This document shows, piece after piece, positions 2,278 through 31,497 of a stretch of DNA of 62,797 nucleotides; positions within the stretch are counted from its first letter, which is position 1; each line of letters starts with the position of its first letter. A program made the translations under genes and the position numbers. Below the pieces are notes generated by a model. That model searched no databases. It saw only the letters and a program-made list of their open reading frames with translations, and had not been told where the DNA came from. Source of the DNA: Nevskia sp. (GTDB lineage Bacteria; Pseudomonadota; Gammaproteobacteria; Nevskiales; Nevskiaceae); NCBI GenBank assembly GCA_031291075.1, contig JARLJS010000057.1:1-62797 (forward strand), given 5' to 3'.

Positions 2278-4263
2278 ATGGCCGTTGCAGTGAGTTATCC
2301 GGGTGTCTACATCCAGGAAGTACCCAGCGGAGTCCGCACCATCGCCAGCGTCGCCACGTCGATCGCGGCTTTCGTGGATTTCTTTCCTTCGGGACCGCTG
2401 AACGAGGCGAGCGAGATCTTCAGCTTCGCCGATTTCGAAAGCCAGTTCGGCGGGCTCGACACGCGTAGCGAGGCGAGCTACGCCATCCAGCAGTTCTTCC
2501 TCAACGGCGGTAGCGCGGCCTACGTGGTGCGCGTCACCTCGGGCACTCCCGCCAACGCCGCGATCGCCGCGGCGATCGCGCTGGAGGACAAGAGCGGCGG
2601 CAGCGTGCTGCTGACCGCCACCGCCAGCAGCCCCGGCGCATGGGGCAACAATGTGCGCATCGACGTCGACTACAACACCACCGACCCGACCAGCCTGTTC
2701 AACCTGACGGTGACGGAAGTCGCCTCGGTCAACGGCAACACCACGGTGGTGGCCACCGAGACCTACCGCAACCTGGTCGTCGACCCGACCAAGCCCAACG
2801 ATGCGGCGGCCGTGGTCAACGCGGCGTCGCAGCTGATCACGCTGAGCGAAGCTTCCGGCAGCAGCGGCAAGCGTCCGGCGCAGACCGGTACCGCCAGCAA
2901 GGCCATCACCTCGATCGGCGCCCTTGGCCTGGCCGCGGGCGACACGCTCAACGTCTCGCTCGGCGCCACCAGCCTGGGCTCGATCGCCGGGCTGACCACC
3001 GTGCCAACCACCCTGGCGGCCCTCGCTTCGACCCTGCAGACCGCGTTGCGCGGCCTGCAGAGCGGTGGCAAGGCGGCCCTGCCCAACGCCACCGTGAGCG
3101 TGGCCGGCAGCGCCTCGACGCAGGCTTACCTGGTGGTCAAGTCCGGCACCGCCTCGCCGGCCGACTACCTGGTGATCTCCGATGCCGCGCCGGGCGGATT
3201 GGCGACCAAGCTCGGCTTCGCCGCCAACACCGGGGCGCAGAACGTGCAGCAGTACGCACTGGGCGGCGCCGCCGCGCAGGCGCAGGCGCTGCCCGGTGCC
3301 AACCAGCTGCAGGGCAGCGACGGCACCTGGGATCCGTCCGGCGACGCTTCCGGCGTGGCGCTGGGCCTGATCGGCGATCCCAATGCCAAGACGGGCATGT
3401 ACGCCCTGCTGGACGTGGACCTGTTCAACATCCTTTGCATCCCGGCCACCATGAACCTGCCGGACCTGCAGACGGCGCAGGTGGCCGCCGACGCCACCGC
3501 GCTGTGCACGCAGCGTCGCGCCATGTACGTGCTCGACGTGCCGCAGCACGACGGCGTGCGCGACACGGTCCCGGCGATCCAGACCTGGCTCGACGCCAAC
3601 GCCGGGCTGCGCAGCCGCAACGCCGCGCTGTACTTCCCGCGCATGGACATCGCCGATCCGCTCAACAACTTCCGCCTGCGCCAGGTGGCGCCGAGCGGCA
3701 CCGTGGCGGGCCTGTGGGCCCGCACCGACGGCGCCCGCGGCGTGTGGAAGGCGCCGGCGGGCACCGAGGCGACCCTGACCGGCGTGCAGGCGCTGGAATA
3801 CAAGCTGACCGATCCCGAGAACGGGGTGCTCAACCCGCTCGCCATCAACTGCCTGCGCAACTTCCCGGTGTACGGCCCGGTCTGCTGGGGCGCCCGCACC
3901 CTGTACGGCGCAGACCAGATGGCGGACGACTACAAGTACATTCCGATCCGGCGCCTGGCCCTGTTCATCGAGGAAAGCCTCTACCGCGGCACGCAATGGG
4001 TGGTGTTCGAACCGAACGACTCGCCCCTGTGGGCGCAGATCCGCCTCAACGTCGGCGCCTTCATGCAGACGCTGTTCCGCCAGGGCGCCTTCCAGGGCTC
4101 CACCCCGGCCGACGCCTACTTCGTGCAGTGCGACGACAAGACCAACCCGCAGGCCACCATCGACCTCGGCATCGTCAACATCGTGGTCGGATTCGCTCCG
4201 CTCAAACCGGCGGAATTCGTGGTCATCCAAATCCAGCAGATGGCTGGGCAGCTGGCGAGCTAA
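2278..4263 (+). CDS. eCIS/phage-type contractile tail sheath protein
   Basis: A 661-residue sheath subunit, the contractile outer layer of the injection machine. The N-terminus (VSYPGVYIQEVPSGVRTI) is the hallmark opening of phage tail sheath and Afp/PVC sheath proteins, and the C-terminal third (WVVFEPNDSPLWAQIR, then VGAFMQTLFRQGAF, ending EFVVIQIQQMAGQ) is the conserved sheath core with the last strand that cross-links neighbours. Residues ~130-370 form an extra Ala/Gly/Thr-rich surface domain. AGGAGAG at 2267-2273 sets the ATG at 2278. It is the first gene of a 29-kb one-direction operon. Only one sheath gene is present, whereas Afp and PVC loci carry three. Confidence 0.96.
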   Translation: MAVAVSYPGVYIQEVPSGVRTIASVATSIAAFVDFFPSGPLNEASEIFSFADFESQFGGLDTRSEASYAIQQFFLNGGSAAYVVRVTSGTPANAAIAAAIALEDKSGGSVLLTATASSPGAWGNNVRIDVDYNTTDPTSLFNLTVTEVASVNGNTTVVATETYRNLVVDPTKPNDAAAVVNAASQLITLSEASGSSGKRPAQTGTASKAITSIGALGLAAGDTLNVSLGATSLGSIAGLTTVPTTLAALASTLQTALRGLQSGGKAALPNATVSVAGSASTQAYLVVKSGTASPADYLVISDAAPGGLATKLGFAANTGAQNVQQYALGGAAAQAQALPGANQLQGSDGTWDPSGDASGVALGLIGDPNAKTGMYALLDVDLFNILCIPATMNLPDLQTAQVAADATALCTQRRAMYVLDVPQHDGVRDTVPAIQTWLDANAGLRSRNAALYFPRMDIADPLNNFRLRQVAPSGTVAGLWARTDGARGVWKAPAGTEATLTGVQALEYKLTDPENGVLNPLAINCLRNFPVYGPVCWGARTLYGADQMADDYKYIPIRRLALFIEESLYRGTQWVVFEPNDSPLWAQIRLNVGAFMQTLFRQGAFQGSTPADAYFVQCDDKTNPQATIDLGIVNIVVGFAPLKPAEFVVIQIQQMAGQLAS

Positions 4264-4275
4264 AGGAGGAACGAC

Positions 4276-4800
4276 ATGGCCGAATTCACCGTCAACGCGC
4301 AGCGCTTCGATCCGTACAAGAACTTCAAGTTCCGCGTGAAGTGGGATGGCAAATACGTCGCCGGCATCAGCAAGGTCGGCATGCTCAAGCGCACCACCGA
4401 GGTGGTGAAGCACCGCGAAGGCGGCGATCCCTCGAGCAGCCGCAAGTCGCCGGGTCGCACCGAATACGACGCGATCACCTTGGAGCGCGGCGTCACCCAC
4501 GACACTGAGTTCGAGGCCTGGGCCAGCAAGGTGTGGAGCCTGGGCGCCGGGCTGGGCTCGGAGGTTTCGCTCAAGGATTTCCGCAAGGACATCCTGATCG
4601 AGCTGTACAACGAAGCCGGCCAGCTCGCGATCAGCTACAAGATCTACCGCTGCTGGGTATCCGAGTACCAGGCGATGCCGGACCTGGACGCCAACGCCAA
4701 CGCGGTGGCGATCCAGCACATCAAGCTGGAAAACGAGGGCTGGGAGCGCGACACCTCCGTCACCGAGCCGACCGAGCCGAGCTTCACGCCGGCCAGCTAA
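4276..4800 (+). CDS. Contractile tail inner tube protein
   Basis: A 174-residue tube subunit (T4 gp19-like/Hcp-like fold) that stacks as hexamers inside the sheath. Diagnostic features are NFKFRVKWDGKYVAGISKVG at residues 14-33, the EYDAITLERGVTHD strand pair, and the C-terminal VAIQHIKLENEGWERD. AAAGGAGG at about 4262-4269 precedes the start and the gene follows the sheath by 12 bases. Only one tube gene is present, whereas Afp and PVC have two. It would be the channel or carrier for cargo. Confidence 0.95.
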   Translation: MAEFTVNAQRFDPYKNFKFRVKWDGKYVAGISKVGMLKRTTEVVKHREGGDPSSSRKSPGRTEYDAITLERGVTHDTEFEAWASKVWSLGAGLGSEVSLKDFRKDILIELYNEAGQLAISYKIYRCWVSEYQAMPDLDANANAVAIQHIKLENEGWERDTSVTEPTEPSFTPAS

Positions 4801-4809: not shown

Positions 4810-5532
4810 ATGCAAACGCCCTCGGCCCCTGCGATGCTTGGTGCCTGGGAGCGCGGTGGCGGCCAGAACCCGATCGACCGGGGCCTGACCCTGCTCGCCC
4901 TCGCCTGCCCGGAGCTTTCCGCCGACGAGCTTGCCGCACTCAGCATCGGCGAGCGCGACCGCCGGCTGCTGGCCCTGCGCGAGACGGTGTTCGGCCCGCG
5001 TATGACCGGCGTGGTGGCCTGCACCCGCTGCGCCGAGCCGCTGGAGTTCGACTTCGACGCCGCCGACCTGCGCGTGACTGGCACCCCCGGTCCGCTGGCC
5101 TTGCGCGTTGACGGCTATGAGCTTGAGCTGCGCCTGCCGGACAGTCGCGACCTGCTCGCCTGCGCCGCGACCGTCCCGGCCGATGCGCCCGCCGCACTGA
5201 TGCAACGCTGCGTGCTGAGCGCGCGCATCGACGGCGTTGCCGCGAACGCTGCAAGCCTGCCGCCGGAGCTGGTGCAGGAAGCGGCGCAATGCCTGGCGCA
5301 GGCCGATCCTCAGGCCGACATGCGCTTCGCCCTGCAATGCGCGTCCTGCGGCCATAGCTGGAAGGCGCCATTCGACATCGTGCGCTTCCTGTGGGCCGAG
5401 CTTGAAGTGTGGGCAGTGCGCATGCTGCAGGACGTGCATGCCCTGGCCGGGGCGTACGGCTGGGCCGAGCGCGACATCCTGGCCCTGGGCAGCACCCGCC
5501 GCCGCCACTACCTGCGGATGCTGAACGCGTGA
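4810..5532 (+). CDS. gp26-like baseplate/hub assembly protein with zinc-ribbon cysteines
   Basis: A 240-residue protein in the position of the T4 gp26-like baseplate hub chaperone of eCIS loci. Two Cys-x2-Cys pairs, ACTRCAEPLEFDFD near residue 78 and CASCGHSWKAPFDIV near residue 178, look like one four-cysteine zinc ribbon split across the chain. The C-terminus (LHAYGWAERDILALGSTRR-like, ending RRRHYLRML) is typical of phage baseplate proteins of this class. It follows the tube gene by 9 bases and its stop overlaps the next start (GTGA). Structural versus chaperone role cannot be separated from sequence. Confidence 0.75.
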   Translation: MQTPSAPAMLGAWERGGGQNPIDRGLTLLALACPELSADELAALSIGERDRRLLALRETVFGPRMTGVVACTRCAEPLEFDFDAADLRVTGTPGPLALRVDGYELELRLPDSRDLLACAATVPADAPAALMQRCVLSARIDGVAANAASLPPELVQEAAQCLAQADPQADMRFALQCASCGHSWKAPFDIVRFLWAELEVWAVRMLQDVHALAGAYGWAERDILALGSTRRRHYLRMLNA

Positions 5533-6359
5533 ACGACTTCTTTGCCAGCCTCGCCGCCCGCGTCCACGGCACCCACGATGCCGTGCGGCCGCGCCTGCCG
5601 TCCATGTTCGAGAGCGACGGCGCGGTGCAGATGCCGTCGGAAGAGACCACGGCGACGGCTCCGCACGACGAGGCGCGTACCGCAAGCGTTGCGCCGCCGC
5701 CGGCGGAACCGCCGGCACAGCGAGCGCCGCTGCCGGCCGCCGACGCTGCGCCGGTACCGTCACGGGCGCCGCTGCAGGTGGTGACCGAGCGTGTGCAGGC
5801 GGCACCGGCAGCCGCTGCGAAAGCGGCTGCGACGACCGCGCCGCCCGTCGCCGCAGCGGCCGCTGTCCAGCCGCCGCCCCTGCCGCCGCAGCGCGGCGAC
5901 GGCGAGACTGTCCGCCACACCGAGCGGGAGGTGATTCGCCGGGAGGTGGTCGAACGCCACCCGGCACCACCGCCGGAAGCACGGCGGGCGCCGCAGTCCG
6001 AGCCCCCGGTTGAACCGCAGCACAAGGTGATGCCGCGGACGGAGCGCCCGGCACCCATGGCGACGCTCCCGGCCCAGGAGTCCGACGATCCGTTTGCCCC
6101 CATGGCTTCGCCACAACGGTCTCCCGCAGCCGTGACGCCGCCGGCGCCGCCGGTGCTGCCGCGGGTCGAACCCCGGCCGCAGCCACCGCAAGCGCCGGTG
6201 CAGCGGCGCGCCGCTGCTGAGCCGGCTATCCAGGTCACCATCGGCCGCATCGAGGTGCGCGCGACCAGCGCACCGGCGGAACGGCGCAAAACGGCGGGCA
6301 CTCCGGTCATGAGCCTTGAGGATTACCTGCGTACACGCGGGGAGCGGGGCCGCGCATGA
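5529..6359 (+). CDS. Pro/Ala-rich eCIS accessory protein with conserved ends
   Basis: A 276-residue protein of no known function. The N-terminal ~30 residues (NDFFASLAARV, then VRPRLPSMFE) and the C-terminal ~45 residues (IQVTIGRIEVRATSAP, then MSLEDYLRTRGERGRA) look folded or motif-like. The ~200 residues between are Pro-, Ala- and Arg-rich and probably disordered, with a short charged stretch HTEREVIRREVVERH. The GTG at 5529 overlaps the previous stop, and the end overlaps the DUF4255 gene by four bases, so it is co-translated with structural genes. A tether or clamp joining two machine parts through short end motifs is a reasonable inference. I recall similar end motifs in other eCIS loci but cannot verify this here. 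Confidence 0.7.
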   Translation: MNDFFASLAARVHGTHDAVRPRLPSMFESDGAVQMPSEETTATAPHDEARTASVAPPPAEPPAQRAPLPAADAAPVPSRAPLQVVTERVQAAPAAAAKAAATTAPPVAAAAAVQPPPLPPQRGDGETVRHTEREVIRREVVERHPAPPPEARRAPQSEPPVEPQHKVMPRTERPAPMATLPAQESDDPFAPMASPQRSPAAVTPPAPPVLPRVEPRPQPPQAPVQRRAAAEPAIQVTIGRIEVRATSAPAERRKTAGTPVMSLEDYLRTRGERGRA

Positions 6360-7588
6360 GCAACTTCCAGGCTATTGCGGCGGTCACCGCCACGCTGCAG
6401 TCGGTCCTGCAGCAGGGCATCTCGGCCGAGCCCGACTTCAACGATGGCCGCGTCACCATCCTGCCGCTGGACAAGGCGCGCGGCAGCAACACCTTCAACC
6501 AGCTCAACCTGTTCCTCTATATGGTGGCGCGCAACGCCGCCTGGGTGAACATGGACATGCCGCGCCAGGTGCAGCCGGGCGAGACCTCGGTCCCGCCGCT
6601 GCCGCTGACGCTGTACTACCTGATCACCTCGTTCGGCCGCGACGACGATGCCGCCCTGCCCTACGGTCACGAGCTGCTCGGCAAGGCGATGAGCATCCTG
6701 CACGACCACCCGCTGCTGAGCGGCGACGACATCCGCGCCGCCACCCAGGCGATCCTGCCCAACAGCAACCTGGACCAGCAGCTCGAGCGCATCCGCATCA
6801 CCCTGCACCCGCTCAACATCGACGAGCTGTCCAAGCTGTGGACCGGCTTCGCCATGCAGTACCGGCTGTCGGCGGCCTACGAGGTGTCGGTGACACTGAT
6901 CGAAAGCACCCGCGCCACGCGCACACCGGTGCCTACGCTGACCCGCGGCAAGAACGACCAGGGCTTCAACTCGCAGGCCAACCTCAACCCGCCGCTGCCG
7001 ACCCTGCTGGGCGTAACGCCGCCCGGCAACCAGCCGAGCGCGCGCCTCAACGACGTCGTCACCATCGCCGGCCTGAACCTCGACGGCAGCAACGTCGGGG
7101 TCCAGTTCAACCACCCGCTATGGACGACCCCGGTGGAGCTGACGCCGCAGCCGGGCGCCACCGGCACCTCGCTGAGCGTGCAGATTCCGAATGCGCCCAC
7201 GGTCTGGCCGGCCGGCTTCTACACCGTGACCGTGCTGGTGCAGCGGCCCGGTGAGACCTTCCGCCGCAGCACCAGCGCGCTGCCGCTGACCCTGGCGCCG
7301 TCGCTGACCCTGGCACCGCCCAGCACGGCGGCCGGCAACGTGCAGTACACCGCCACGGTGTCGCCGCAGGTATGGCCGCAGCAGCGCGTCACGCTGATGC
7401 TGGGAGGCAACGAATTCCAGGCCGACCCGCACACCACCCAGACCGGCACGCTGACCTTCCAGACCAGCGGCCTCGTCGCGGGCAGCTACTGGTTCCGCCT
7501 GCGCGTCGACGGCGTCGACAGCCTGCTGGTGGACCGCAGCAAGACGCCGCCGGTATTCGATCCCACTCAGCAGGTGACCCTGACATGA
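6356..7588 (+). CDS. DUF4255 (Pvc16/Afp16-like) tail terminator with C-terminal Ig-like domains
   Basis: A 410-residue protein. Residues 1-190 match the Pvc16 N-terminal family: FQAIAAVTATLQSVLQ, LNLFLYMVARNAAWVNMD, LPLTLYYLITSFG and LGKAMSILHDHPLL. In Afp/PVC this protein caps the sheath and tube at the distal end and stops elongation. Residues ~215-410 carry two beta-rich repeats, the first with IPT/TIG-like features (NDVVTIAGLNLDG, VQFNHPLWTTPVELTP), which would decorate the cap. The gene is translationally coupled at both ends (ATGA overlaps). The Ig-like extension makes it about 200 residues longer than a bare terminator. Confidence 0.9.
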   Translation: MSNFQAIAAVTATLQSVLQQGISAEPDFNDGRVTILPLDKARGSNTFNQLNLFLYMVARNAAWVNMDMPRQVQPGETSVPPLPLTLYYLITSFGRDDDAALPYGHELLGKAMSILHDHPLLSGDDIRAATQAILPNSNLDQQLERIRITLHPLNIDELSKLWTGFAMQYRLSAAYEVSVTLIESTRATRTPVPTLTRGKNDQGFNSQANLNPPLPTLLGVTPPGNQPSARLNDVVTIAGLNLDGSNVGVQFNHPLWTTPVELTPQPGATGTSLSVQIPNAPTVWPAGFYTVTVLVQRPGETFRRSTSALPLTLAPSLTLAPPSTAAGNVQYTATVSPQVWPQQRVTLMLGGNEFQADPHTTQTGTLTFQTSGLVAGSYWFRLRVDGVDSLLVDRSKTPPVFDPTQQVTLT

Positions 7589-9750
7589 GCGAGGTCAAGG
7601 ACTGGCAGGAGGCCAATACACGGTATCTGTCGGACGCGATCGCCGGGGTGCGCGCCCTGCTGCTGCAGCGGGCGGGCGGCGCGCCAAAAATCACGGTTGC
7701 GCCCGCCGCCCTGCCGCCCCCGCCGGCAACGACGGCAACGACGGCACAGAGCGGGTCCGGCGGCTTCTGGCGCGGACTGTTCGGCCCCAAGGCCGCGCCG
7801 CAGGCGCAGCCTGCCCAGTCAGCGACCGCCGCGCCGGCAGGCAAGCCGGTCGAAACCGGCAAGCTGGTCGAGACCAAGCCGCCGCCGTCCGCTCCCGTCG
7901 CCACCGACATGAACCCGCCGCCGGCGCTGACGGTGCTGTGCGACCGCCTGGCACTGACGCCGTTCGAACGCGAGGTGCTGTTGCTGTGCGTGGCGGCGGA
8001 GCTGGACACGTCGATCGGCCCTTTGTGTGCCCGGGTGCAGGGCGATGCGAGCCGTCCGTATCCGAGCTTCGCGCTGGCGCTGAGCCTGTTCGAAGACGCC
8101 GCCTGGGACGTGCTCTCGCCGGAACGGCCGCTGCGCTACTGGCGTCTGCTGGAAATCAACCAGGCGGCGGGACAGCCGCTCACGTCCAGCCCGCTGCGCG
8201 CGGATGAACGCATCACCAATTACCTGAAGGGTCTGAGCTATCTCGACGACCGGCTGATGCCGTTGCTGTCGCCGCTGCCGCCGCCGTCCCCGGTACCGGC
8301 GGCGCCGGCCACCCATCGCGCGGCGGCGCAGCGGATCATGGATGCGCTGCTGCAGAATCCGGCCGGCCAGCCGGCCCCGGCGATCCAATTGGTCGGCGCC
8401 GATGCGGCCAGCAAGCAGGCGATCGCCGGCATGGTGGCAGCCAAGCTGGGCCGCCATGTCTACCGGCTGCCGCTGCACCTGTTGCCCTCGGCACCGCCGG
8501 ACCTGGAGAGTTTCGCCAGGCTCTGGCAGCGCGAGAGCATGCTGCTGCCGCTGGCCCTGTATCTCGATGCGCAGGGTGCCGAGGGTGAAGGCGCGCAGGC
8601 CACGGCCGCCGCCGGCGTCGGCCGCCTGTTGTCGCGGCTCAACGGCCTGGTGTTCCTCGGCGTGCGCGACCGCTGGGTCGGGCTGGCGCAGGCCGCGGCC
8701 GTAGTCGACGTGTCCAAGCCCACCGCGGCGGAACAGGAGCAGGCCTGGCAGGAAGCACTGGGCGGTGCCGCCGGTGCCAGCCCCGCCGCCCTGTCCGGAC
8801 AGTTCAACCTCAACCTGGACACCATCCACGGCATCGCCGCACAAGCCACCGCGGTCCCGGCCGGAAGCCCGCCATTGCAGTCCCGGCTGTGGGACGCCTG
8901 CCTGGCCGCGGCGCGGCCGCAGCTGGAAGGGCTGGCGCAACGCATCGAGCCGAAAGCCACCTGGGACGATATCGTGCTGCCGGCGCAGGATATCGCGCTG
9001 CTGCGCCGCGTCGCCGACCAGGTCGGTCTGCGCTCGACGGTGTACCGGCAGTGGGGCTTCGAACGCAAGCTGAGCCGCGGCCTCGGCATCAGCGCGCTGT
9101 TCGCCGGCGACAGCGGCACCGGCAAGACCATGGCGGCCGAGGTCATCGCCAACCATCTGCGGCTGCACCTCTACCGCATTGACCTGTCGGCGGTGGTGAG
9201 CAAGTACATCGGCGAGACCGAGAAGAACCTGCGGCGCCTCTTCGATGCGGCAGAGGATGGCGGCGCCATCCTGTTCTTCGACGAGGCGGACGCGCTGTTC
9301 GGCAAGCGCAGCGAGGTCAAGGACAGCCACGACCGCTACGCCAACATCGAGATCAACTACCTGCTGCAGCGCATGGAGTCCTACAGCGGCCTGGCCATCC
9401 TGGCAACCAACGTCAAGAGCGCGCTCGACCCGGCCTTCCTGCGGCGCCTGCGTTTCGTCATGAACTTCCCCTTCCCCGGCACGGCCGAGCGCAAGACGAT
9501 GTGGCAGAAGGCGTTCCCTGCCGGCACGCCGACCCAGGACCTGGACTACGACCGCCTGGCGCGGCTCACCCTGGCGGGCGGCCACATCATCAACATCGCC
9601 CTCAACGCGGCCTTCGCCGCGGCGCAGTCCGGCACGCCGGTGACCATGCCGCTGATCTTCGAGGCCGCCCGCACCGAGTTCCGCAAGCTGGAGCGTCCGA
9701 TCCACGAGCCGGATTTCCGCTGGCCGCTCGCGGCGGCGAGGCCGGCGTGA
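7585..9750 (+). CDS. AAA+ ATPase of the eCIS (Pvc15/Afp15-like)
   Basis: A 721-residue ATPase. The N-terminal ~110 residues are Pro/Ala-rich linker, residues ~110-410 a divergent first AAA-like module without a clear Walker A, and the C-terminal ~290 residues a canonical AAA+ domain with Walker A GDSGTGKT at 508-515, Walker [13 protein letters not shown] from 562 (D566, E567), sensor-1 ILATNV and arginine-finger region [11 protein letters not shown]. In eCIS this ATPase is needed for assembly or for loading cargo. The ATG at 7585 overlaps the preceding stop; longer in-frame upstream codons lie inside the DUF4255 gene and are rejected. It sits directly before the DUF4157 block, consistent with a cargo-handling role. 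Confidence 0.93.
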
Positions 9751-10013
9751 AGATCGACCTGCACATCGAGCGGCTGGTCGTCGACGGCCTCGAGTTGTCG
9801 TCCGCCGAGGCCCGGCGCCTGCGCCGGTCGGTGGAGCGCGAACTGGCGCGCCTACTGACCGACGGCGGCCTCGCCCAGTCACTCGCCCGCGGCGCGGCCG
9901 TGCCGCGGCTGCAGGCTCCCGCCATCGCGTTGCCGCCGCGGGCGACGCCTGAAGCCACGGGCGGCCGCATCGCCGCCGCGGTCCACAGCAGCCTGGCTCC
10001 CGCCAAGCCATGA
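9747..10013 (+). CDS. Small conserved-type eCIS protein of unknown function
   Basis: An 88-residue protein starting at a GTG that overlaps the ATPase stop (GTGA) and ending by overlapping the first DUF4157 gene. The first 45 residues ([20 protein letters not shown], then RRSVERELARLLTD) predict a beta strand and an amphipathic helix; the rest is Pro/Ala-rich and ends AAAVHSSLAPAKP. Tight coupling between the ATPase and the effector block suggests an adaptor or chaperone for cargo, which is inference. I recognise no named family. Confidence 0.65.
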   Translation: MKIDLHIERLVVDGLELSSAEARRLRRSVERELARLLTDGGLAQSLARGAAVPRLQAPAIALPPRATPEATGGRIAAAVHSSLAPAKP

Positions 10014-11572: not shown

Positions 11573-11593
11573 ACATGCGGCGCAGAGCAAGCC

Positions 11594-12943
<1,350 letters not shown>

Positions 12944-12958
12944 AGCGGATGCCCGGAT

Positions 12959-20693: not shown

Positions 20694-21053
20694 ATGAACA
20701 TCGACTTCCCGTTCCATTTCGACGCCCGCGGCCGCACCGCGGCCACCGACGACGCCGACCACATCCGCGACATGATCGAGGAGCTGCTGTTCACCTCGCC
20801 GGGCGAGCGCGTCAACCAGCCGGACTTCGGCAGCGGCCTGCTGCAGATGGTGTTCGCGCCGAACTCCACCGAGCTGGCCTCGGCCCTGCAGTTCACCGCG
20901 CAGGCGGCGCTGCAGCGCTACCTGGGCGACCTCATCGACCTGCAGCAGCTCAATGTGACCGCGCAGGACGCGAGCCTCAGCGTCATCGTGAAGTACATCA
21001 TCCGCGCCACCCAGCAGTCGCAGACCAACACCTTCGTACGGAGCGCGCCATGA
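20694..21053 (+). CDS. gp25-like baseplate wedge protein
   Basis: A 119-residue GPW/gp25 family protein, which in T4 starts sheath polymerisation at the baseplate. Conserved elements are HIRDMIEELLFTSPGERV, NQPDFGSGLLQMVFAPN (the P-F-G-S-G core) and C-terminal strands VTAQDASLSVIVKYII. Four bases separate it from the PAAR-like gene and it overlaps the next gene by four bases. Confidence 0.95.
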   Translation: MNIDFPFHFDARGRTAATDDADHIRDMIEELLFTSPGERVNQPDFGSGLLQMVFAPNSTELASALQFTAQAALQRYLGDLIDLQQLNVTAQDASLSVIVKYIIRATQQSQTNTFVRSAP

Positions 21054-23758: not shown

Positions 23759-26700
23759 AACAGAACTGCGACTGCTGCACCGGCACCGGGATCGAAGTGC
23801 CGGCGTCCGAAGCGAACCCTCCCGGGCTCGACGCCCTGCGCTACCGCGTCGGCACGCACTCCAGCTTCCTGGACGCCATGCTGGCGCGGTTGAGCAACCT
23901 CACGCTGGAGGTGCCCTCGGTTTCCGGCAGCGGCACCGACACGCTGACTCCATTGTCGCGCCTGACCACGCGCGACCCGGCGGACCCATCCATCGCCCTG
24001 CTCGACGCCTGGGCCACCGTGGCCGACGTGCTGACCTTCTACCAGGAGCGCATCGTCAACGAGGGCTACCTGCCCACCGCCACGCAGCGGCGCTCGCTGC
24101 TGGAACTGGCGCGTCTTATCGGCTACCGCCTGCGGCCGGGCGTGGCCGCCTCGGTGAGGCTGGCCTTCACCGTCGCCAACGGCTTCAACGGCACCATTCC
24201 GGCCGGCACGCGGGCACAGAGCATCCCGGGCAGCGGCCAGAACCCGCAGTTCTTTGAAACTTCCGCCGACCTCGCCGCGCGCGACGCCTGGAACGCGCTG
24301 GGGCCACGCCTGACGCGGCCGCAGTTGATCACACCGGCGGGCTTCGAGCCGGTGGTGCTGCCGCCCGACAGCAGCGGCGGCCTGGCGCCGGACATCCTGC
24401 GCATCCTCAAGGTACCCCTGGTCACCGGCGCCGACGTCATCGACACCGTTTACTTCGACGGCGTCGCCACCAACCTCAAGCCGGGTGACGCGCTGTTCTT
24501 CATCTTCGGCCCCAATGCCGACCCCGGCGCCACGCCGCCGCAGCAGTACATGCGTCTGGTCGCCAACGTCGACGCGCAGGCCGCGGCGGGCCGCACCGAG
24601 ATCACGCTGAACCTGCAGACCGACGGCCGCACCGCGGTGCAGGAGCTGTACCTGTACATGTACAAGGCGCAGTTCCTGTTCCCCGGCAGCGATCTCGCCA
24701 CCCAGGTGGTGAACGTGCTGCAGCCGGTGATCGACAACATCAACGCCTCCAACGGCAGCACCATCGGCCATGGTCCCCTGCTGCAGGCCGCCATGTCCCG
24801 CATCTCGCTGATCCGCGGCCTGGCCGTGCAGCGCGGCTTCACCCGCATCGCGGCCTGGCTGGCGATGCTGCTGCGCGCCATGCAGTGGATGAGCCTGGGC
24901 AGCCAGTCGGTGATCCTGTCCAGCCTGGGAACGCTGGAGCCGATCCTGCTGGAGTACCCGATCCTGCTGCAGCAGACCTTCCTGACGTTCAAGTCGGCCC
25001 ACACGCTCCAGTACCACGACTCCGCCTACGGCGGGCCGGTGGCGCTGGAACGCCTGCCCGACGCGCCGCCACCCTCGCCGCTGGCCAACCTGGCCACCAT
25101 CACCGCGGCGCTGACGCGAGAGCCGTCGCTGCAGCCGACCAATGCGCTGCGCCTCAACCGCAGCATCGCCGGCAGCTTCACGCCGCAGTCCGACCTGGCG
25201 CCGCGCCTGCTCGCCGCCCTCCACCCCGCGGCGGCCGCTACCTTGTATCCGGCCTGGTCGGCGATCGCCACCCCGGCGGGCCGGGTGGAGGTGCACGCCG
25301 CACGGGTCAAGGCGGGTCTGTTCGCCGCGACCTGGACCGGGCCTTCGACCGTCACCAGCGGCAACCAGATCAGTACCTCGTTCACCGATCCCACCATCAG
25401 CAGCGCCTGGAGCCATTCCCTGCCTGGAATCGCCAACAGCATTGCCGAGCTGCCGCTGGACGCGCCCTACGAGCAGGTCAAGCCGGGCAGCTGGGTCGCC
25501 GTCGACCGGCCGGTGCTGGACGCCTCCGGCCAGCTGCAGACCGGCCAGCGCCAGGTCACCTACCACGTGGTCGCGTCGCTGCGCACCGCCAACCTCGCCG
25601 CGGGCCCGGCCGGCGCCAGCGGCGCATCCGGTGCCAGCGGCGCGTCGGGCGCGAGCGGCGGCAGCGGTACCGGCTTTGCCGCCAAGGTGACGCTGCTGAC
25701 CCTGAATCCGCCATGGCTGAGCGACCAGGCGGCCAGCGATTACACCAAGTCGATCGGGGCGACCGCGATGCTCCGGCAGTCCATCGTCTACGCCCAGAGC
25801 GAGCCCCTCACGCTGACCGAGGAGCCGCTGGACACCGACATCGCAGGGGATTCCATCGACCTCGCCGGCGTCTACGACGGCCTGGAGCCGGGCCGCTGGG
25901 TCATCGTCTCCGGCACCCGCACCGACATCCCCAACGTGAGCGGCGTCAGCGGCAGCGAGCTGGCGATGATCGCCAGCGTGTCACAGGGGGTACAGGCGCC
26001 GCTGTGCACGGCGTTTCCGCTGTCGACGCCGCCGTTCCAGCAGGTGTACTACACCACCGACGCGGATGCGTTCGGCGACCGCCTGGTGGTCGGGCAGCTC
26101 AGCGCGGACGCGCTGGGCACCATCGACCCGCAGAGCCAGCAGCCGGTGCCGGCGGTCTTTTCCGATCCCAACCTGCTGCCGCTGCCGCAGCTTCTCAACC
26201 AGCAGTACTGCAACCAGGTCGAGCTGGCGCCCGGCACTTACGCCAACCCCTACGTGCCGACCACCTCCGAGCGCAACGGCCAGTTCCCGACGTTCGCCGG
26301 CCTGCTGGTGGATCCGCAGACCAACATTCCGTACGACGGCGGCATCCTCACGCCCCAGGCCATCGCCTCCGGCGTGTTCGCCTGGCGCGTATCGAGCCAG
26401 GCGCTGCACACCATCATCAACCTCGCCACCAAGCTGGCCTACCAATACGACCGCGCCACCGTCACCCTCTATGGCAACGTCGCCGACGCCACCCACGGCC
26501 AGACCGTCGGCGAGGTGCTGGGCAACGGCGACGCCACCATCAGCTTCGCCAGCTTCACCCTGGGGCAGTCGCCGCTCACTTACGTGTCGGCGCCGACGGC
26601 GTCCGGCACCACCAGCAGCCTGCAGGTGACGGTCAACGAGCTGGAGTGGCACGAAGTGGACGAGCTGGCCGGCGCCGGCCCGACCCAGCGCTGCTACGTC

Positions 26701-27609
26701 ACCGCCGAGGACGACTCGCAGGACACCAGCGTCACCTTCGGCAACGGCGTGCACGGCGGCGCGCGCACGCCGACCGGCAACTCCAACATCAAGGCCACCT
26801 ACCGCTATGGCATCGGCAGCGCCGGCAACGTCGACGCCGGCCAGATCAGCCAGCTCGCCACTCATCCGCTTGGCGCGCAGGGCGTGATCAACCCGCTGCC
26901 GTCCAGCGGCGGCGCCGATCCGGATACCCTGGACCAGGCGCGCGTCAACGCGCCGGTGGCGGTGATGGCGCTGGACCGGCTGGTGTCGGTGCGGGACTAC
27001 AGCGACTTCACGCGCACCTACGCGGGCGTCGGCAAAGCGGTCGCGGCCAGGCTTTCCGACGGCCAGCGACAGGTGGTGCACCTCACCATCGCCGGCACCA
27101 ACGACATCCCGATCCTGACGGGCTCGGACCTCTACAACAACCTGCTCGCCTCGCTGCAGAACTACGGCGATCCCCACCAGCCGGTGCAGGTCGATAACCG
27201 GCGCCTGCGGTTGATCGTGATGGCGGCCGCGGTGACGCTGCTGCCCGACTACGCCTGGGAGAATGTCGAACCGCGGGTGCGCGCCGCGTTGCAGGCGCTG
27301 TTCGCCTTCGACGCACGGGCGCTGGGCCAGACCGCGTTCCTGAGCGAGGCGATCGCGGCCGCGCAGCAAATCGAGGGCGTGGCCTGTGTCGACGTCACCA
27401 CCTTCGACAGCGTGCCGGAAAGCGTGACCGCGCCGCAGCTCGCCGCCCTTGGCAGCACGCTGCGCCGCAAGCCGTTCGTGCGGTCCGAGCTGGCACGGAT
27501 CGATCCCCGCGCCGCACCCGGCACACCGCAGCGCATCGTGCCGGCGGAGCTGGTGTTCCTGACGCCGGCGATCCCCGACACGCTGATCCTGACGCAGGCC
27601 GGCAGCTGA
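23755..27609 (+). CDS. Large second baseplate wedge protein with GAS-repeat linker
   Basis: A 1284-residue wedge protein. It opens with CDCC (residues 5-8), then SFLDAMLARLSNLTLEVP and SIALLDAWATVADVLTFYQE, the same wedge entry as its neighbour. The C-terminal third has the J core (TFGNGVHGGARTPTGNSNIK, YRYGIGSAGNVDAGQISQ, APVAVMALDRLVSVRDYSDF). The middle ~600 residues are an enlarged insertion with a Gly-X-Y run ([18 protein letters not shown]) near residue 618-640, encoded at about 25608-25674. It would give the baseplate a flexible collagen-like arm or loop. The ATG at 23755 overlaps the previous stop; the frame is open further upstream only by chance. Confidence 0.9.
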   Translation: MKQNCDCCTGTGIEVPASEANPPGLDALRYRVGTHSSFLDAMLARLSNLTLEVPSVSGSGTDTLTPLSRLTTRDPADPSIALLDAWATVADVLTFYQERIVNEGYLPTATQRRSLLELARLIGYRLRPGVAASVRLAFTVANGFNGTIPAGTRAQSIPGSGQNPQFFETSADLAARDAWNALGPRLTRPQLITPAGFEPVVLPPDSSGGLAPDILRILKVPLVTGADVIDTVYFDGVATNLKPGDALFFIFGPNADPGATPPQQYMRLVANVDAQAAAGRTEITLNLQTDGRTAVQELYLYMYKAQFLFPGSDLATQVVNVLQPVIDNINASNGSTIGHGPLLQAAMSRISLIRGLAVQRGFTRIAAWLAMLLRAMQWMSLGSQSVILSSLGTLEPILLEYPILLQQTFLTFKSAHTLQYHDSAYGGPVALERLPDAPPPSPLANLATITAALTREPSLQPTNALRLNRSIAGSFTPQSDLAPRLLAALHPAAAATLYPAWSAIATPAGRVEVHAARVKAGLFAATWTGPSTVTSGNQISTSFTDPTISSAWSHSLPGIANSIAELPLDAPYEQVKPGSWVAVDRPVLDASGQLQTGQRQVTYHVVASLRTANLAAGPAGASGASGASGASGASGGSGTGFAAKVTLLTLNPPWLSDQAASDYTKSIGATAMLRQSIVYAQSEPLTLTEEPLDTDIAGDSIDLAGVYDGLEPGRWVIVSGTRTDIPNVSGVSGSELAMIASVSQGVQAPLCTAFPLSTPPFQQVYYTTDADAFGDRLVVGQLSADALGTIDPQSQQPVPAVFSDPNLLPLPQLLNQQYCNQVELAPGTYANPYVPTTSERNGQFPTFAGLLVDPQTNIPYDGGILTPQAIASGVFAWRVSSQALHTIINLATKLAYQYDRATVTLYGNVADATHGQTVGEVLGNGDATISFASFTLGQSPLTYVSAPTASGTTSSLQVTVNELEWHEVDELAGAGPTQRCYVTAEDDSQDTSVTFGNGVHGGARTPTGNSNIKATYRYGIGSAGNVDAGQISQLATHPLGAQGVINPLPSSGGADPDTLDQARVNAPVAVMALDRLVSVRDYSDFTRTYAGVGKAVAARLSDGQRQVVHLTIAGTNDIPILTGSDLYNNLLASLQNYGDPHQPVQVDNRRLRLIVMAAAVTLLPDYAWENVEPRVRAALQALFAFDARALGQTAFLSEAIAAAQQIEGVACVDVTTFDSVPESVTAPQLAALGSTLRRKPFVRSELARIDPRAAPGTPQRIVPAELVFLTPAIPDTLILTQAGS

Positions 27610-27619: not shown

Positions 27620-29791
27620 ATGAACCCCAATCCCGATCGTCTGTACGAGCTGATCCCCGTCGTCTACCGCCTGCGCGACGCCGACCAGGGCTACCCGCTG
27701 CGCGCGCTGCTGCGCGTGGTGCAGGAGCAGGTGGAGGTGGTCGAAAAGGATATCGCCGGTCTGTACGAGAACTGGTTCATCGAGACCTGCCAGGACTGGG
27801 TGGTCCCCTACATCGGCGCGCTGATCGGCTATACCCCGGTGAGCAGCGGACCACAGACCGCCACCGGGGCCCGTGCCCAGGCGCGCGAGCGGATCCTGGT
27901 GCCGCGGCGCGAGGTGGCGAACACGATCCGCTTCCGCCGCCGCAAAGGCACCCTGGCGGTGCTGGAGGACCTAGCCGAAGCGGTCGCCGGCTGGCCGGCC
28001 CACGCGGTGGAGTTTTACCGCCTGCTGGCGGTGACGCAGAACATCGATCACCTGCACATGGACCGCGGCCGCACCGCCGAGCTGCGCGACGGCGACGCAC
28101 TCGACGCGCTGGGCGGGCCGTTCGACGAGATGGCGCGCAACGTCGACGTGCGGCGGGTCAACTCGCTCCACAGCCGCGGCACCTCCAACATCCCCGAGGT
28201 GGGCGTGTTCGTCTGGCGCCTGCGCTCGTACACCGTGACGCAGGCGCCGGCCTATTGCTACGAGGAGGAATCGCCGAACTGCTTCCTGTTCAGCGCGCTG
28301 GGCAACGATAGCCCGCTCTACGTCAACCCGCAGGCCGCCGGCGCCGACCCGGCGCTGCCGTTGCCGATCGCGCGGCGTGACCTGGAAGTGCACGAGGCCG
28401 CGGAGGGCGCGCCGGTGACCTCCGGCGTACCTTACTACTACGGCCCCGGCAAGAGCCTGGTGATCCTCACCGGCACGCCGGCGACGGCGGTGCCGGCCGA
28501 GCGCATCGTGCCGGCCGACCTGAGCGGCTGGAAATACCGCCCGCTGCCGGGCCAGGTCGCGGTCGACCCGGTGCTGGGGCGGATCATGTTCCCGCCCAGC
28601 CAGACCCGCCGGCAGGCGGTGTGGGTGTCCTACAGCTACGGCTTCAGCGCCGATATCGGCGGCGGCGAATACCCACGCAGCCTGAGCCAGGCGCCGGATT
28701 CGACCCTCTACCGCGTCGGCCAGGGGCTGGATCCGAAGAGCGGCTTCACCCGCATCGCCGACGCGCTGACGCAGTGGAAGCAGGACGCCCCGGCCAACGC
28801 GGTGATCGAGATCGTCGACAGCGCGGTCTACGCCGAGCCGATCGCGGTCGAGCTGGCGCGTGGCCAGACCCTGCAGCTGCGCGGCGCCGAGGGCAGCCGG
28901 CCGGTGATCCGCCTGCTCGACTGGCAGACCTCCGCGGCCGACAACCTCAGCGTGAGCGGAGTCACGGGGAGCTGGTTCGTGCTTGACGGGGTGGTGGTGA
29001 GCGGCCGCGGCATGCAGGTCGGCGGCACCATCTCCGGCGTCACCATCCGTCACTGTACGCTGGTGCCGGGCTGGAGCCTGGACAGCAACTGCGAATGCAA
29101 CCATCCCACCGAACCGAGCATCGAGGTGGTGGACGCGCCGCGCTGTATCACCATCGAGCACAGCATCGTCGGCGCGATCCAGGTCGAGCGTGACCAGGCG
29201 GCGGAGGATCCCCTGCGGCTGCAGGTCAGCGACAGCGTGATCGATGCCACCAGGACCAGCCAGGTGGCGCTGGGCGCCTCCGGCAAGCTGTGCGCGCACG
29301 TCACCCTGGAGCTGCGGCGCAGCACCGTGTTCGGCCAGGTGCAGACGCACCTGATCGAGCTGGCCGAGAACAGCATCCTGCTCGGCGATGTGCGCGTGTG
29401 CCGGCGCCAGCAGGGTTGCATGCGCTTCTGCTACGTCACGCCCGCCTCGCGCACGCCGCGCCGCTACGAGTGCCAGCCGGACCTGGTGCGGAGCGCGGTC
29501 GACACCCTCTATCCGCCCGGCGATGTCGCCGACACCGACGCCCGCAATGCGTTGTTGCAGGCGGAGACCCTGCGGGTGGTGCCGCAGTTCGACAGCACCC
29601 GCTATGGGACTCCCGGCTATTGCCGGCTGGCGCTGGACTGCGCCGTCGAGATCAGTGCCGGCGCCGACGATTCCTCCGAGATGGGGGTGTTCCACGACCT
29701 TTACCAGCCGCAGCGCAGCGCCAACCTGCGCGAGCGGCTCAACGAATACACGCCGGCGGGGAGCGATGCCGGCGTCCTCTACGCGAGTTAA
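27620..29791 (+). CDS. Baseplate/tail protein, gp7- or tail protein I-like
   Basis: A 723-residue protein. The N-terminal part (LYELIPVVYRLRDADQGYPL, ALLRVVQEQVEVVEKDIAGL, WFIETCQDWVVPYIGALIGY) is diagnostic of the eCIS tail protein that follows the two J-like wedges. Residues ~370-600 look like a right-handed beta-helix or repeat of short strands (VVVSGRGMQVGGTISGVTIR, IEHSIVGAIQV), a fold common in phage tail and fibre-like proteins. It starts 10 bases after the second wedge. It may bind outside surfaces, and is the best candidate for a receptor-facing structure, but no adhesin domain is certain. Confidence 0.85.
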   Translation: MNPNPDRLYELIPVVYRLRDADQGYPLRALLRVVQEQVEVVEKDIAGLYENWFIETCQDWVVPYIGALIGYTPVSSGPQTATGARAQARERILVPRREVANTIRFRRRKGTLAVLEDLAEAVAGWPAHAVEFYRLLAVTQNIDHLHMDRGRTAELRDGDALDALGGPFDEMARNVDVRRVNSLHSRGTSNIPEVGVFVWRLRSYTVTQAPAYCYEEESPNCFLFSALGNDSPLYVNPQAAGADPALPLPIARRDLEVHEAAEGAPVTSGVPYYYGPGKSLVILTGTPATAVPAERIVPADLSGWKYRPLPGQVAVDPVLGRIMFPPSQTRRQAVWVSYSYGFSADIGGGEYPRSLSQAPDSTLYRVGQGLDPKSGFTRIADALTQWKQDAPANAVIEIVDSAVYAEPIAVELARGQTLQLRGAEGSRPVIRLLDWQTSAADNLSVSGVTGSWFVLDGVVVSGRGMQVGGTISGVTIRHCTLVPGWSLDSNCECNHPTEPSIEVVDAPRCITIEHSIVGAIQVERDQAAEDPLRLQVSDSVIDATRTSQVALGASGKLCAHVTLELRRSTVFGQVQTHLIELAENSILLGDVRVCRRQQGCMRFCYVTPASRTPRRYECQPDLVRSAVDTLYPPGDVADTDARNALLQAETLRVVPQFDSTRYGTPGYCRLALDCAVEISAGADDSSEMGVFHDLYQPQRSANLRERLNEYTPAGSDAGVLYAS

Positions 29792-29802
29792 GGAGACATA
29801 CC

Positions 29803-31497
29803 GTGAAGGCTGATCTGACGCGCAACAGTTTCGACCCCCTCAAGCACTTCAGCGGCGTGCTGATGCAGCAAGGACGGGTGCAGCTCGACGCCGACTGGAA
29901 CGAGCAATCCTCCATCCTGCTGCACCTGATCCGCCAGCTGGTCGTCGATTTCGGCGGCAGCGCGGTCAGCCCCAAGGGCGGCTTCAGGATCGACCCGCTG
30001 ACCACCGCTACCGTGGTGGACAACGACGTGCTCATCGCGCCGGGCAGTTATTACGTCGACGGCATCCTGTGCGAGCTGGAATCTACGCCGATGCCGATCC
30101 TGTCCTGGGACGCCAAGGACGGCCACAACATCAAGGTGGCCAACTGGACCGTCGACGGTGGCGGCTACCAGGTCGGCCAGTACGTGGAGGTGTACGACGA
30201 CTCGGCCAAGCCGGTGGCCGCCGCGGTGTTGTGCAAGGTGGCCAAGCTCGACTACTCCAACCTGACCCTCACCCTGGACACCGACGTCAGTTCCCTGCGC
30301 AACGCCGCCAACGGCCGCCTGCGGCGCCTGACCACCTACCTGACGCAGCCCGACCTCCCCAACCCCGCGCCGCTGTCCAGCGGCAAGCCGCGCTACCAGC
30401 TGTACCTGGACGTGTGGGAGCGCGCGATCACCTACGTCGAGGACGACAGCATCCGCGAGGTGGCCCTCAACGGTCCGGATACCGCGGCGCGCAGCCGCGT
30501 GGTGTGGCAGGTCAAGGCGCTGCCGGCGACGCTGGAAGGCTGTGTCGCCCAGGGCAGCCTGGCCGACCAGCTGCAGCCCTGGAATCGCGGCCTGCTGCGC
30601 GCGCGCGCCGAGCCGGCGCAGGTCTCCACCGATCCCTGCACCATTTCGCCGGACTCGCTCTACCGGGGACCGGAGAACCAGCTGTACCGGGTCGAGATCC
30701 ACACCGGCAGCAACGATCCCTCCGGCCTGCCGCCGAGCTTCAAGTGGTCGCGCGAGAACGGCGCGGTGGTGTTCCCCATTGTCAAGCTGAGCAGCGGCGA
30801 CACCGCCACCACCGTCACCCTGGGCAACCTGGGGCGCGACGACCGTTTCAGCCTCGAGCCCGGCGACTACGTCGAGGTGCAGGACGACAACTCGGTGCTG
30901 TCCGGCAGCGCCGGCAAGCTGCTGCAGGTGCAGGCGGTGGACAGCAACAACTGCATCGTCACCCTGGCCGGCAACGTGGCGGCCGGCGTCGGCAACGATC
31001 CGACCCTGCATCCCCTGCTCCGCCGCTGGGACCACAAGGCCGGCGATGCCGCGCAAGGAGGGCTGACCCTCGGCAAGGACGGCGCTGCCTTGATCTCCAC
31101 CGCCAGCAGCAGCGCCGGCAAGTTCGTCATCCAGATCGCCAACCCCTGGCTGGACCTGGAAGACGGCGTGCAGATCCAGTTCGAGGAGTTGAGCTATGCC
31201 AGCTACCGCAGCGGCGACTACTGGCTGATCCCGGCGAGGGTCGCCACCGGCGACGTGATCTGGCCGCAGGAAAGCTATACCGACGCCAACGGCAAAACCA
31301 GCAGCAACCCGGTGGCCAAGGGACCCGACGGCATCACCCATCACTACGCGCCGCTGGCGGTGGTCACGGTCAAGGCCGGCGCCGCTCCGCAGGTGACGCA
31401 GTGCGGCGTGGCGCGGGCCGTCGCCAACCCGGTGGGGGTCATCGACACTCCGGTGCTGGTCAATAACCCCGGGAACCTGGCGGTCAACAAGCCCTAA
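29803..31497 (+). CDS. DUF6519 eCIS protein
   Basis: A 564-residue protein opening with DLTRNSFDPLKHFSGVLMQQ, GRVQLDADWNEQSSIL, the hallmark of DUF6519 proteins found at the end of eCIS operons. The central part contains YQLYLDVWERAITYVEDDSI, YRVEIHTGSNDPSGLPPSFK and WSRENGAVVFPI; the latter set is a carbohydrate- or fibre-like beta domain. The GTG at 29803 follows AGGAGA. Last gene of the operon. Likely baseplate-associated; exact position in the machine is unknown. Confidence 0.88.
   Translation: MKADLTRNSFDPLKHFSGVLMQQGRVQLDADWNEQSSILLHLIRQLVVDFGGSAVSPKGGFRIDPLTTATVVDNDVLIAPGSYYVDGILCELESTPMPILSWDAKDGHNIKVANWTVDGGGYQVGQYVEVYDDSAKPVAAAVLCKVAKLDYSNLTLTLDTDVSSLRNAANGRLRRLTTYLTQPDLPNPAPLSSGKPRYQLYLDVWERAITYVEDDSIREVALNGPDTAARSRVVWQVKALPATLEGCVAQGSLADQLQPWNRGLLRARAEPAQVSTDPCTISPDSLYRGPENQLYRVEIHTGSNDPSGLPPSFKWSRENGAVVFPIVKLSSGDTATTVTLGNLGRDDRFSLEPGDYVEVQDDNSVLSGSAGKLLQVQAVDSNNCIVTLAGNVAAGVGNDPTLHPLLRRWDHKAGDAAQGGLTLGKDGAALISTASSSAGKFVIQIANPWLDLEDGVQIQFEELSYASYRSGDYWLIPARVATGDVIWPQESYTDANGKTSSNPVAKGPDGITHHYAPLAVVTVKAGAAPQVTQCGVARAVANPVGVIDTPVLVNNPGNLAVNKP

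Follow-up and report, generated by a model that had tools for sequence, protein, structure and literature searches.

Five candidate cargo genes within a one-strand CIS operon

The window analysed here, a stretch of 62,797 nucleotides on contig C226 of a Nevskia sp. draft genome (302 contigs, 5.65 Mb), contains between positions 2278 and 31497 a one-strand contractile injection system (CIS) operon of 22 genes, all on the plus strand, as delimited from open reading frames (ORFs), translations, and hidden Markov model (HMM) scans. In its middle, between the genes for an AAA+ ATPase and a tube adaptor, positions 10010-17451 (7,442 bp) hold five consecutive genes with an eCIS_core (DUF4157) domain, each matched at E <= 2.1e-29. 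The original prediction had placed five DUF4157 genes spanning 7.4 kb in this ATPase-to-adaptor interval, and its coordinates and block length are right; its gene list overlooked a small gene, orf7 (9747-10013), before the first cargo, the remaining coordinates being right. The interval is referred to below as the slot, and the five genes as a rack of cargos, E1 to E5 (E-values in parentheses):

9747..10013, plus strand: orf7, 88 aa, GTG start, found by synteny
10010..11572, plus strand: cargo E1, 520 aa; eCIS_core at aa 51-125 (2.1e-29); C-terminal glycine-zipper segment
11594..12943, plus strand: cargo E2, 449 aa; eCIS_core at aa 44-119 (7.2e-35); second HExxH (HELQH, aa 269); glycine zipper
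12959..14383, plus strand: cargo E3, 474 aa; four-Cys motif; eCIS_core at aa 75-152 (4.5e-32); C-terminal hydrophobic segment
14407..15753, plus strand: cargo E4, 448 aa; four-Cys motif; eCIS_core at aa 77-152 (6.8e-35); HEMGH at aa 326; glycine zipper
15760..17451, plus strand: cargo E5, 563 aa; eCIS_core at aa 65-141 (1.2e-29); glycine zipper around aa 189; deamidase domain at aa 311-424

All five cargos combine an eCIS_core domain over the Pfam cut-off, an HExxH motif, and a C-terminal extension. The core domains lie near the N-terminus and are 54-63% identical to one another; beyond 65 aa past the core, comparison of the cargos yields two short matches at E < 0.01 (E2 with E4 over 37 aa, E2 with E3 over 29 aa). 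The claim that the warheads differ therefore holds by sequence, and that of E5 can be named, while three others are only suggested by a second HExxH or by sub-threshold families.

The C-terminus of E5 matches Gln_deamidase_2 (3.3e-23; 82.3 bits against a Pfam cut-off of 25) and the sequences of five solved protein-glutaminases in the PDB (best 6.4e-13), and stays below the NCBIfam equivalog cut-off (73.5 of 250 bits). Aligned to 8z3i, it keeps DGCY.RAH, HVAP, and VIDPSL, which we take to be the carriers of the Cys-His-Asp triad. By homology, E5 is the sole cargo whose warhead can be firmly named, as a predicted protein-glutamine deamidase. Two or three of E2, E3, and E4 are probable metallopeptidases. 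E3 contains a metzincin-like HEFGHMLGAHH motif at aa 371 and matches Reprolysin_5 below cut-off (0.0013), and E4, of which aa 1-215 were modelled with AlphaFold2 (AF2), matches DUF6782 below cut-off (9.6e-4). E1 is perhaps a membrane-active protein; its warhead matches no Pfam or NCBIfam family over cut-off and has no relative on the plasmids searched, and a weak PADLOC match to LeoBC (1.5e-8) spans its Gly-rich part and may be compositional.

The spacers that follow E1 to E5 (21, 15, 23, 6, and 72 bp) are too short for immunity genes to lie between the cargos. The canonical toxin-immunity pairing of type VI secretion systems (T6SS) was not found, as no immunity gene adjoins E1-E5. A hydrophobic segment with a glycine zipper occurs in all five window cargos and in 8 of the 10 cargos from the four nearest loci. 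Elsewhere the combination is present in 7 of the 44 remaining first-set cargos (one further cargo was too short to use) and in 11 of the 49 held-out ones, both sets being described below with the Phi-Q-R motif; among cargos of other loci with G+C >= 0.60, 8 of 41 have it. As these counts are uncorrected for relatedness, the segment is a lineage trait at most.

Within the same class, 37 of 369 genomes gave an eCIS_core match; the counts are 37 of 397 for the same phylum, 50 of 396 for the phylum of G421 (an Acidobacteria metagenome-assembled genome), and 15 of 16 for the genomes behind the syntenic loci discussed below. These samples overlap, the three large ones score the best 13 or 14 candidates per genome, and pooled they comprise 134 positive genomes. 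Defining an array by a shared strand and at most 5 kb between domain starts, we counted one array of five (the present window), two of four, seven of three, 23 of two, and 169 single genes. The prediction that five consecutive copies are exceptional is borne out by this being the largest array in the 134 eCIS_core-positive genomes, a rank that is descriptive only, since the genome itself was not drawn at random.

The same genome also has the most eCIS_core copies (nine; the next has eight), of which five are in the rack and four on other contigs (L025 on C251, L026 on C237, L027 on C89, and L028 on C185), in ORFs of 415-901 aa. A genome of Moorena producens has been described with 18 predicted toxins of extracellular CIS (eCIS), half of them with DUF4157 (PMC11297309; papers are cited by PubMed Central (PMC) identifier and, except for PMC8213781, from passages of their text). 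The hydrophobic segment that E1 to E5 have in common is absent from all four orphan cargos, and no machine gene of the window was matched (BLAST, E <= 1e-3) in the 11-19.5 kb around them. The tube family Phage_T4_gp19 has one match in the whole genome, the gene at 4276..4800, and the orphans may be loaded in trans by the single machine found, by analogy with Halogeometricum borinquense, in which DUF4157 proteins encoded off-cluster belong to the CIS-dependent secretome (PMC11566945).

The other genes of the operon encode the machine. Family scans covered all 22 genes with Pfam, 10 with NCBIfam, and 7 with PHROGs (E-values in parentheses):

2278..4263, plus strand: sheath, 661 aa; Phage_sheath_1 (3.5e-8), sheath_1C (5.1e-9); nearest solved sheath 8bky (2e-77)
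4276..4800, plus strand: inner tube, 174 aa; Phage_T4_gp19 (3e-45)
4810..5532, plus strand: T4 baseplate-like protein, 240 aa; PF12322 (7e-7)
5529..6359, plus strand: Pro/Ala-rich, probably disordered protein, 276 aa, GTG start; no family
6356..7588, plus strand: cap or tail terminator (Pvc16/Afp16-like), 410 aa; Pvc16_N (1.5e-44), presumably the present name of the terminator family DUF4255
7585..9750, plus strand: AAA+ ATPase (Pvc15/Afp15-like by position), 721 aa; AAA (2.8e-26), WHD (1.7e-21)
17524..18186, plus strand: tube adaptor or initiator, 220 aa, downstream border of the slot; CIS_tube (1.3e-6); 16 syntenic relatives
18359..18730, plus strand: LysM-like baseplate protein, 123 aa; named by eye and position; PHROG wedge (6.2e-5) and hub (1e-4); synteny
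18727..19854, plus strand: hub, 375 aa; position and synteny; 69-78% identical at the same place in L009-L012
19851..20366, plus strand: spike, OB-fold (gpV/VgrG-like), 171 aa; Phage_base_V (1.7e-23)
20366..20689, plus strand: PAAR-like tip, 107 aa; DUF4280 (1.1e-4, just below cut-off); synteny
20694..21053, plus strand: gp25-like wedge, 119 aa; GPW_gp25 (5.9e-17)
21050..23758, plus strand: baseplate wedge 1, 902 aa; PHROG baseplate wedge (2.4e-17); no Pfam match
23755..27609, plus strand: baseplate wedge 2 (Baseplate_J), 1284 aa; PF04865 (6.6e-10)
27620..29791, plus strand: conserved tail protein, 723 aa; no family match; position and synteny
29803..31497, plus strand: DUF6519 (eBAP5 fibre-base domain) protein, 564 aa, GTG start; PF20129 (1.2e-85)

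HMM matches and synteny confirm that sheath, tube, cap, ATPase, hub/spike, tip, gp25, wedges, tail protein, and DUF6519 lie in one direction, as had been predicted. Searching every gene in this way named most parts, the exceptions including the hub, without a Pfam match over cut-off or a relative among solved structures, and the 723-aa tail protein, without any match. That the genes mostly join by start/stop overlaps was too strong a statement, as 10 of the 21 junctions overlap. The CIS core set of PMC8213781 (Phage_T4_gp19, sheath, gp25, Baseplate_J, terminator, AAA, and DUF4157) occurs in this one cluster. The spike-complex families PAAR_motif and Phage_GPD gave no Pfam match at E <= 0.1 (E <= 1 for the hub); in their place are Phage_base_V and the sub-threshold DUF4280, with the hub identified from synteny. 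Some relatives have short matches to the Pro/Ala-rich protein at the corresponding position, and the DUF6519 protein has little sequence beyond the domain.

The left neighbour of the operon is an EamA transporter gene and the right neighbour a TonB receptor gene; as both are on the opposite strand, the operon borders fall inside the window. The TonB receptor, a NikR-like regulator, and a HupE/UreJ-like membrane protein (31588-36842) resemble a nickel-uptake group, the regulator and the membrane protein being named by eye, and an ORF at 48983-49912 has collagen-like Gly-X-Y repeats by eye.

The slot and orf7 in related loci

A scan with the tube adaptor identified 16 loci in records labelled Pseudomonadota, Actinomycetota, Chloroflexota, Acidobacteriota, Nitrospirota, and Planctomycetota. 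The order of matched machine genes is identical in all 16 as far as the retrieved DNA reaches, and in each the slot is bordered by the ATPase and tube adaptor genes, with the small gene orf7 present in 15, in some weakly. The slot holds four eCIS_core genes in L011, three in L010 and L014, two in L009, L015, and L024, one in L012, L013, and L019, and none in L016, L017, L018, and L020-L023. Nine more survey loci have one or two slot cargos (L029, L033-L038, L045, and L048). The arrangement itself, which the original prediction had taken to be unusual, is therefore not so, as a slot with these borders and zero to four cargos recurs in 16 of 16 loci; the prediction would have been undone by synteny showing a common five-cargo layout, and here the layout proved common, with five cargos only in the present window.

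Cargo genes can also follow the DUF6519 gene. In L039 and L047, which share contigs with the empty slots L017 and L021, they do so in place of slot cargos, and in L029/L030 they are present at both sites. The genome with three eCIS_core genes after the DUF6519 gene of its CIS (L039) has, in addition, four weak tandem eCIS_core domains (L040, G414:C11:556000-575500), one of which was recovered by the model used for the loci. The L016 slot, which lacks eCIS_core, contains other open frames of about 1.1 kb (L016:8859-10000) that could be another kind of cargo. The first slot cargo of L009 is a 1992-aa stop-to-stop ORF with eCIS_core (L009:1463-7438), which recalls the large Tme of Streptomyces davawensis.

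Machine proteins of the four nearest loci (L009-L012) are 45-90% identical to those of the window: 86-87% for the spike, 69-78% for the hub, 53-60% for the AAA protein, 45-54% for wedge 2, and 85 and 89% for the tube in the two loci that reach it. Among the cargo C-termini, only those of E3 and E4 match first-set cargos, at 26-32% identity (E3 with L010 at 26%, E4 with L010 and L011 at 28%, and matches to L030 at 31-32%), and no relative of the E1, E2, and E5 C-termini was found in that set. With the machine kept and the cargos turning over, the slot works like a cassette bay, a fixed frame with exchangeable contents.

The upstream side of the slot includes orf7, which overlaps both the ATPase gene and E1 by four bases, the junction with E1 being ATGA. 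It has no match in Pfam, PHROGs, or PADLOC. Its AF2 model (aa 1-86) is helical with a pLDDT (predicted local distance difference test) of 90, and Foldseek found no match to it in the PDB better than E 5. In the 369 class genomes, all seven orf7 matches outside the own genome at E <= 1.8e-5 (six genomes) precede a same-strand eCIS_core gene by no more than about 2 kb, compared with 1 of 12 weaker ones (E 1.7e-4 to 0.01); a second, weak match in the own genome (C170) is not placed in this way. A first BLAST pass found orf7 in 8 of 9 loci with slot cargos and in none of the 7 cargo-free ones. When the gaps were then searched with a profile and filters switched off, diverged homologues (E 1e-8 to 1.1e-3, in a set of a few dozen ORFs) came up in the cargo-free loci L017, L018, L020, L021, L022, and L023, and none in the L016 gap. 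Because homologues also occur in loci without slot cargo, we rejected a role for orf7 as a cargo-specific loading adaptor. Judging from its homologues, orf7 is a conserved part of the present CIS lineage across the labelled phyla.

Phi-Q-R tripeptides beside the eCIS_core domain

[LIVM]QR (Phi-Q-R) tripeptides recur beside the eCIS_core domain. At least one copy is present in 90 of the 109 cargos of both sets (68 on the N side, 65 on the C side), counts that are uncorrected for common descent and in which stop-to-stop frames may add untranslated N-side residues. In the first set of 60 proteins, which includes the five window cargos and the four orphans, 38 have a copy within 120 aa after the core (mean 3.9 and maximum 9 in 300 shuffles) and 36 have one within 120 aa before it. 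The held-out set comprises 49 cargos from 40 new regions, a few of them sharing a genome (one of 50 was dropped as too short after the core), and has 27 with a copy after the core (mean 4.0 and maximum 11 in 500 shuffles) and 29 with one before.

The density in the held-out set is 9.9 per 1000 aa before the core and 5.4 after it, compared with 0.58 in the rest of the same proteins. When all 400 [LIVM]XY patterns were counted in the held-out flanks, QR ranked first, with 87 copies against 8.4 expected (z 27), and the next pattern reached z 6.5. Matched segments of 330 structural CIS ORFs contain 0.84 copies per 1000 aa, with gp25 the highest class at 2.5. Twenty small DUF4157 ORFs chosen as likely non-cargo contain 1.35 per 1000 aa, with the motif in five of them, a control weakened because half are barely recognised by the model and several have hardly any flanks.

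In the window, [LIVM]QR is found at aa 172 in E1, 162 in E2, 24, 155, and 197 in E3, 25 and 50 in E4, and 24 and 186 in E5 (also 216, 290, and 469). IQRQ or LQRQ occurs 43-47 aa past the core in E1, E2, and E3, and IQRL in E5, while the stretch after the core of E4 lacks Phi-QR but contains QQRQ and VLNR. The N-side copies often bracket the four-Cys motif, which is present in 28 of the 109 cargos: 17 of the 28 have Phi-[QR]-R just before and Phi-QR just after it, and 24 have at least one side.

These counts support Phi-Q-R punctuation as a recurrent sequence feature of the cargo module, a more surprising one than the layout. A limited search of open-licence PMC papers gave no description of a Phi-Q-R motif with DUF4157, and the passages of PMC11297309 on motifs and DUF4157 make no mention of [LIVM]QR. 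More speculatively, and with considerable doubt, [LIVM]QR could be an unreported cross-phylum cargo-handling signal, providing either docking sites for the ATPase or tube, or processing or latency sites of a gluzincin-like domain. In the latency variant, this domain, a small one with HExxH and in some cargos a Glu helix further along, would have its own Phi-Q-R strand folding back, by analogy with the zymogen segments of minimal metallopeptidases. If this were true, a rack of five different warheads would share one punctuation code. Should the punctuation itself hold, the role of eCIS_core in loading or release would become testable.

The PF13699 model (79 positions) ends before a downstream helix with E..A[DE], which is present in all five window cargos and whose Glu is a possible third zinc ligand. 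As a general feature this ligand was rejected, as E..A[DEGQ] occurs 5-65 aa past the core in five of five window cargos and only 43 of 109 overall (shuffle mean 13.2, maximum 24).

Working, origin, and known relatives of the system

We consider it likely that the operon encodes a horizontally acquired CIS with an expandable cargo slot, whose cargos are loaded into the tube and expelled on contraction. With the slot between the ATPase/orf7 genes and the tube-adaptor gene, the five eCIS_core proteins would be made beside the tube-initiating parts. Each cargo would most likely be brought into the tube by the ATPase together with the eCIS_core module, as the precedent of Cgo1 and Cgo2 of AlgoCIS suggests, and the five would compete for or share its lumen until contraction of the sheath expels them. 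The glycine-zipper segments would probably insert in a membrane on delivery, with deamidation (E5, by homology) and proteolysis as predicted effects. The five have the N-terminal module in common and differ in their C-terminal parts.

Several steps have published counterparts. DUF4157 cargos occupy the tube and disappear or become fewer once it has contracted (PMC8894135), tip, spike, and tube initiator elute together with a DUF4157 effector (PMC11126660), a DUF4157 protein of Streptomyces lividans binds both a CIS part and an effector (PMC13277306), and the Pvc15 ATPase helps load signal-tagged cargo (PMC11495950).

Some observations weigh against the proposed working. The locus is known here from its genes, so that expression, assembly, loading, and delivery are all predicted. 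No tape-measure family was matched in the Pfam, NCBIfam, and PHROGs scans, and no conventional fibre gene was found in the operon, DUF6519 being the sole fibre-like one; the completeness that had been predicted for the operon is to be read with care on these two points. Only one warhead is above the Pfam cut-off, the orphan cargos could serve another function, and the slot survey draws on loci found by one query (the tube adaptor scan) and on sampled genomes. As to origin, eCIS_core was found in none of 17 other genomes of the genus, some of which are drafts 84-90% complete, and the core-domain tree is weak and compatible with a shared origin of the five.

Records labelled Burkholderia, Paraburkholderia, Alphaproteobacteria, and Mycobacterium contain tube adaptors 78-83% identical to the present one; together with the absence of eCIS_core from the congeners, these near adaptors in other classes point to horizontal transfer, and horizontal acquisition is the simplest reading of the sequences. 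The adaptor of L011, labelled Mycobacterium sp. KBS0706, is about 80% identical, which reflects either cross-phylum transfer or a wrong label. Adaptor relatives are present on 19 of 72,556 plasmid records, one of them more than 60% identical. Among the 17 congeners, relatives of the TonB receptor occur in 11 and of the EamA transporter in three. In the core tree (76 columns; 100 of 109 rows, nine being too short; poorly resolved), the five window cores do not form one clade and none is paired with another, unlike the arrays L032, L039, and L067, which hold supported pairs. Recent tandem duplication as the origin of the rack is not supported by this weak tree or by the 54-63% core identity.

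Alternatively, though with lower probability, the operon could encode a cytoplasmic CIS of the kind known from Streptomyces, which would act, cargos included, on the producing cell or its kin in programmed lysis or development. Release of the particle from the cell, which the term eCIS in the original prediction implies, is no more than a possibility here. The nearest solved sheaths (8bky and 8bl4; 2e-77 and 7.8e-75) are both listed in a Streptomyces CIS paper that describes clusters without a conventional fibre and typical tape measure (PMC10066040), as here, and the cargos have no room for immunity genes between them. However, sheath likeness does not fix a mode of action, the operon closes with the DUF6519 gene, whose domain is described as the fibre-base domain eBAP5 (PMC12923769), and the adjoining TonB receptor points to a Gram-negative host, unlike Streptomyces.

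It is improbable that the five eCIS_core proteins are tail-length or tube-filling parts replacing the tape measure more than they are toxins. Such a role would fit their position just upstream of the tube adaptor, which is the place of the tape measure in phage tails and is like that of Tme upstream of the baseplate genes in S. davawensis (PMC11126660), the missing tape-measure family, and the hydrophobic glycine-zipper segment of all five, as tape measures have hydrophobic segments. However, lengths vary from 448 to 563 aa in the rack and from 359 to 1992 aa among stop-to-stop ORFs in the slots of relatives, and the slot is free of eCIS_core genes in 7 of 16 loci, which means that the cargos cannot set one tube length; E5, moreover, carries an enzyme domain. 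We give very little credence to the rack being a graveyard or a functionless by-product of local duplication, as five homologous genes side by side in a 302-contig draft assembly might suggest: all five reading frames are intact, all five keep HExxH, core identity is only 54-63%, and the core tree pairs none of the five.

The window holds the largest eCIS_core rack of the survey in a fixed, exchangeable slot, whose bordering genes allow new loci to be scanned for cargos. Among the cargos, E5 stands out as a candidate protein-glutamine deamidase delivered by a CIS.

Among solved sheaths, that of the machine is nearest to those of the Streptomyces CIS, whose subtype is IId (S. coelicolor CIS-Sc and S. 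davawensis). These Streptomyces systems are described without a typical tape measure or Afp13-type fibre (PMC10066040), and neither was found here, but the present operon ends in a DUF6519/eBAP5 gene. The gene for the DUF4157 effector Tme of S. davawensis directly precedes the baseplate genes (PMC11126660). As the largest frame in that cluster it gives a single, very large protein, where the present locus has five of 448-563 aa.

A more distant sheath (3.3e-31) is 7adz, which we take to be that of AlgoCIS, a system with two cargos in place of five. These DUF4157 cargos of Algoriphagus, Cgo1 and Cgo2, differ in their C-termini and fill one CIS tube independently (PMC8894135). The second nearest sheath group is haloarchaeal (9ezm, 6.7e-72; code listed in PMC11566945). 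The CIS/T6SS cluster of H. borinquense has a mid-cluster 'interspacing region' with DUF4157 genes, and its CIS-dependent secretome includes five DUF4157 proteins, not all cluster-encoded (PMC11566945); its toxins have downstream immunity partners, for which the spacers of 6-23 bp between cargos here have no room. L011 shares the order ATPase, orf7, cargos, tube adaptor, with an adaptor 80-81% and a spike 87% identical, and has four slot cargos instead of five; of the window's five C-termini, only that of E4 finds one of them, at 28% identity. VgrG2b, a T6SS metallopeptidase, has its toxin domain on a spike protein, in contrast to eCIS_core, an N-terminal module preceding other domains. A mid-cluster DUF4157 region and a machine with multiple DUF4157 cargos are already in print, in the passages cited of PMC11566945 and PMC8894135. 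The syringe and slot are of a known kind and the layout is common; the rack is the longest in the survey.

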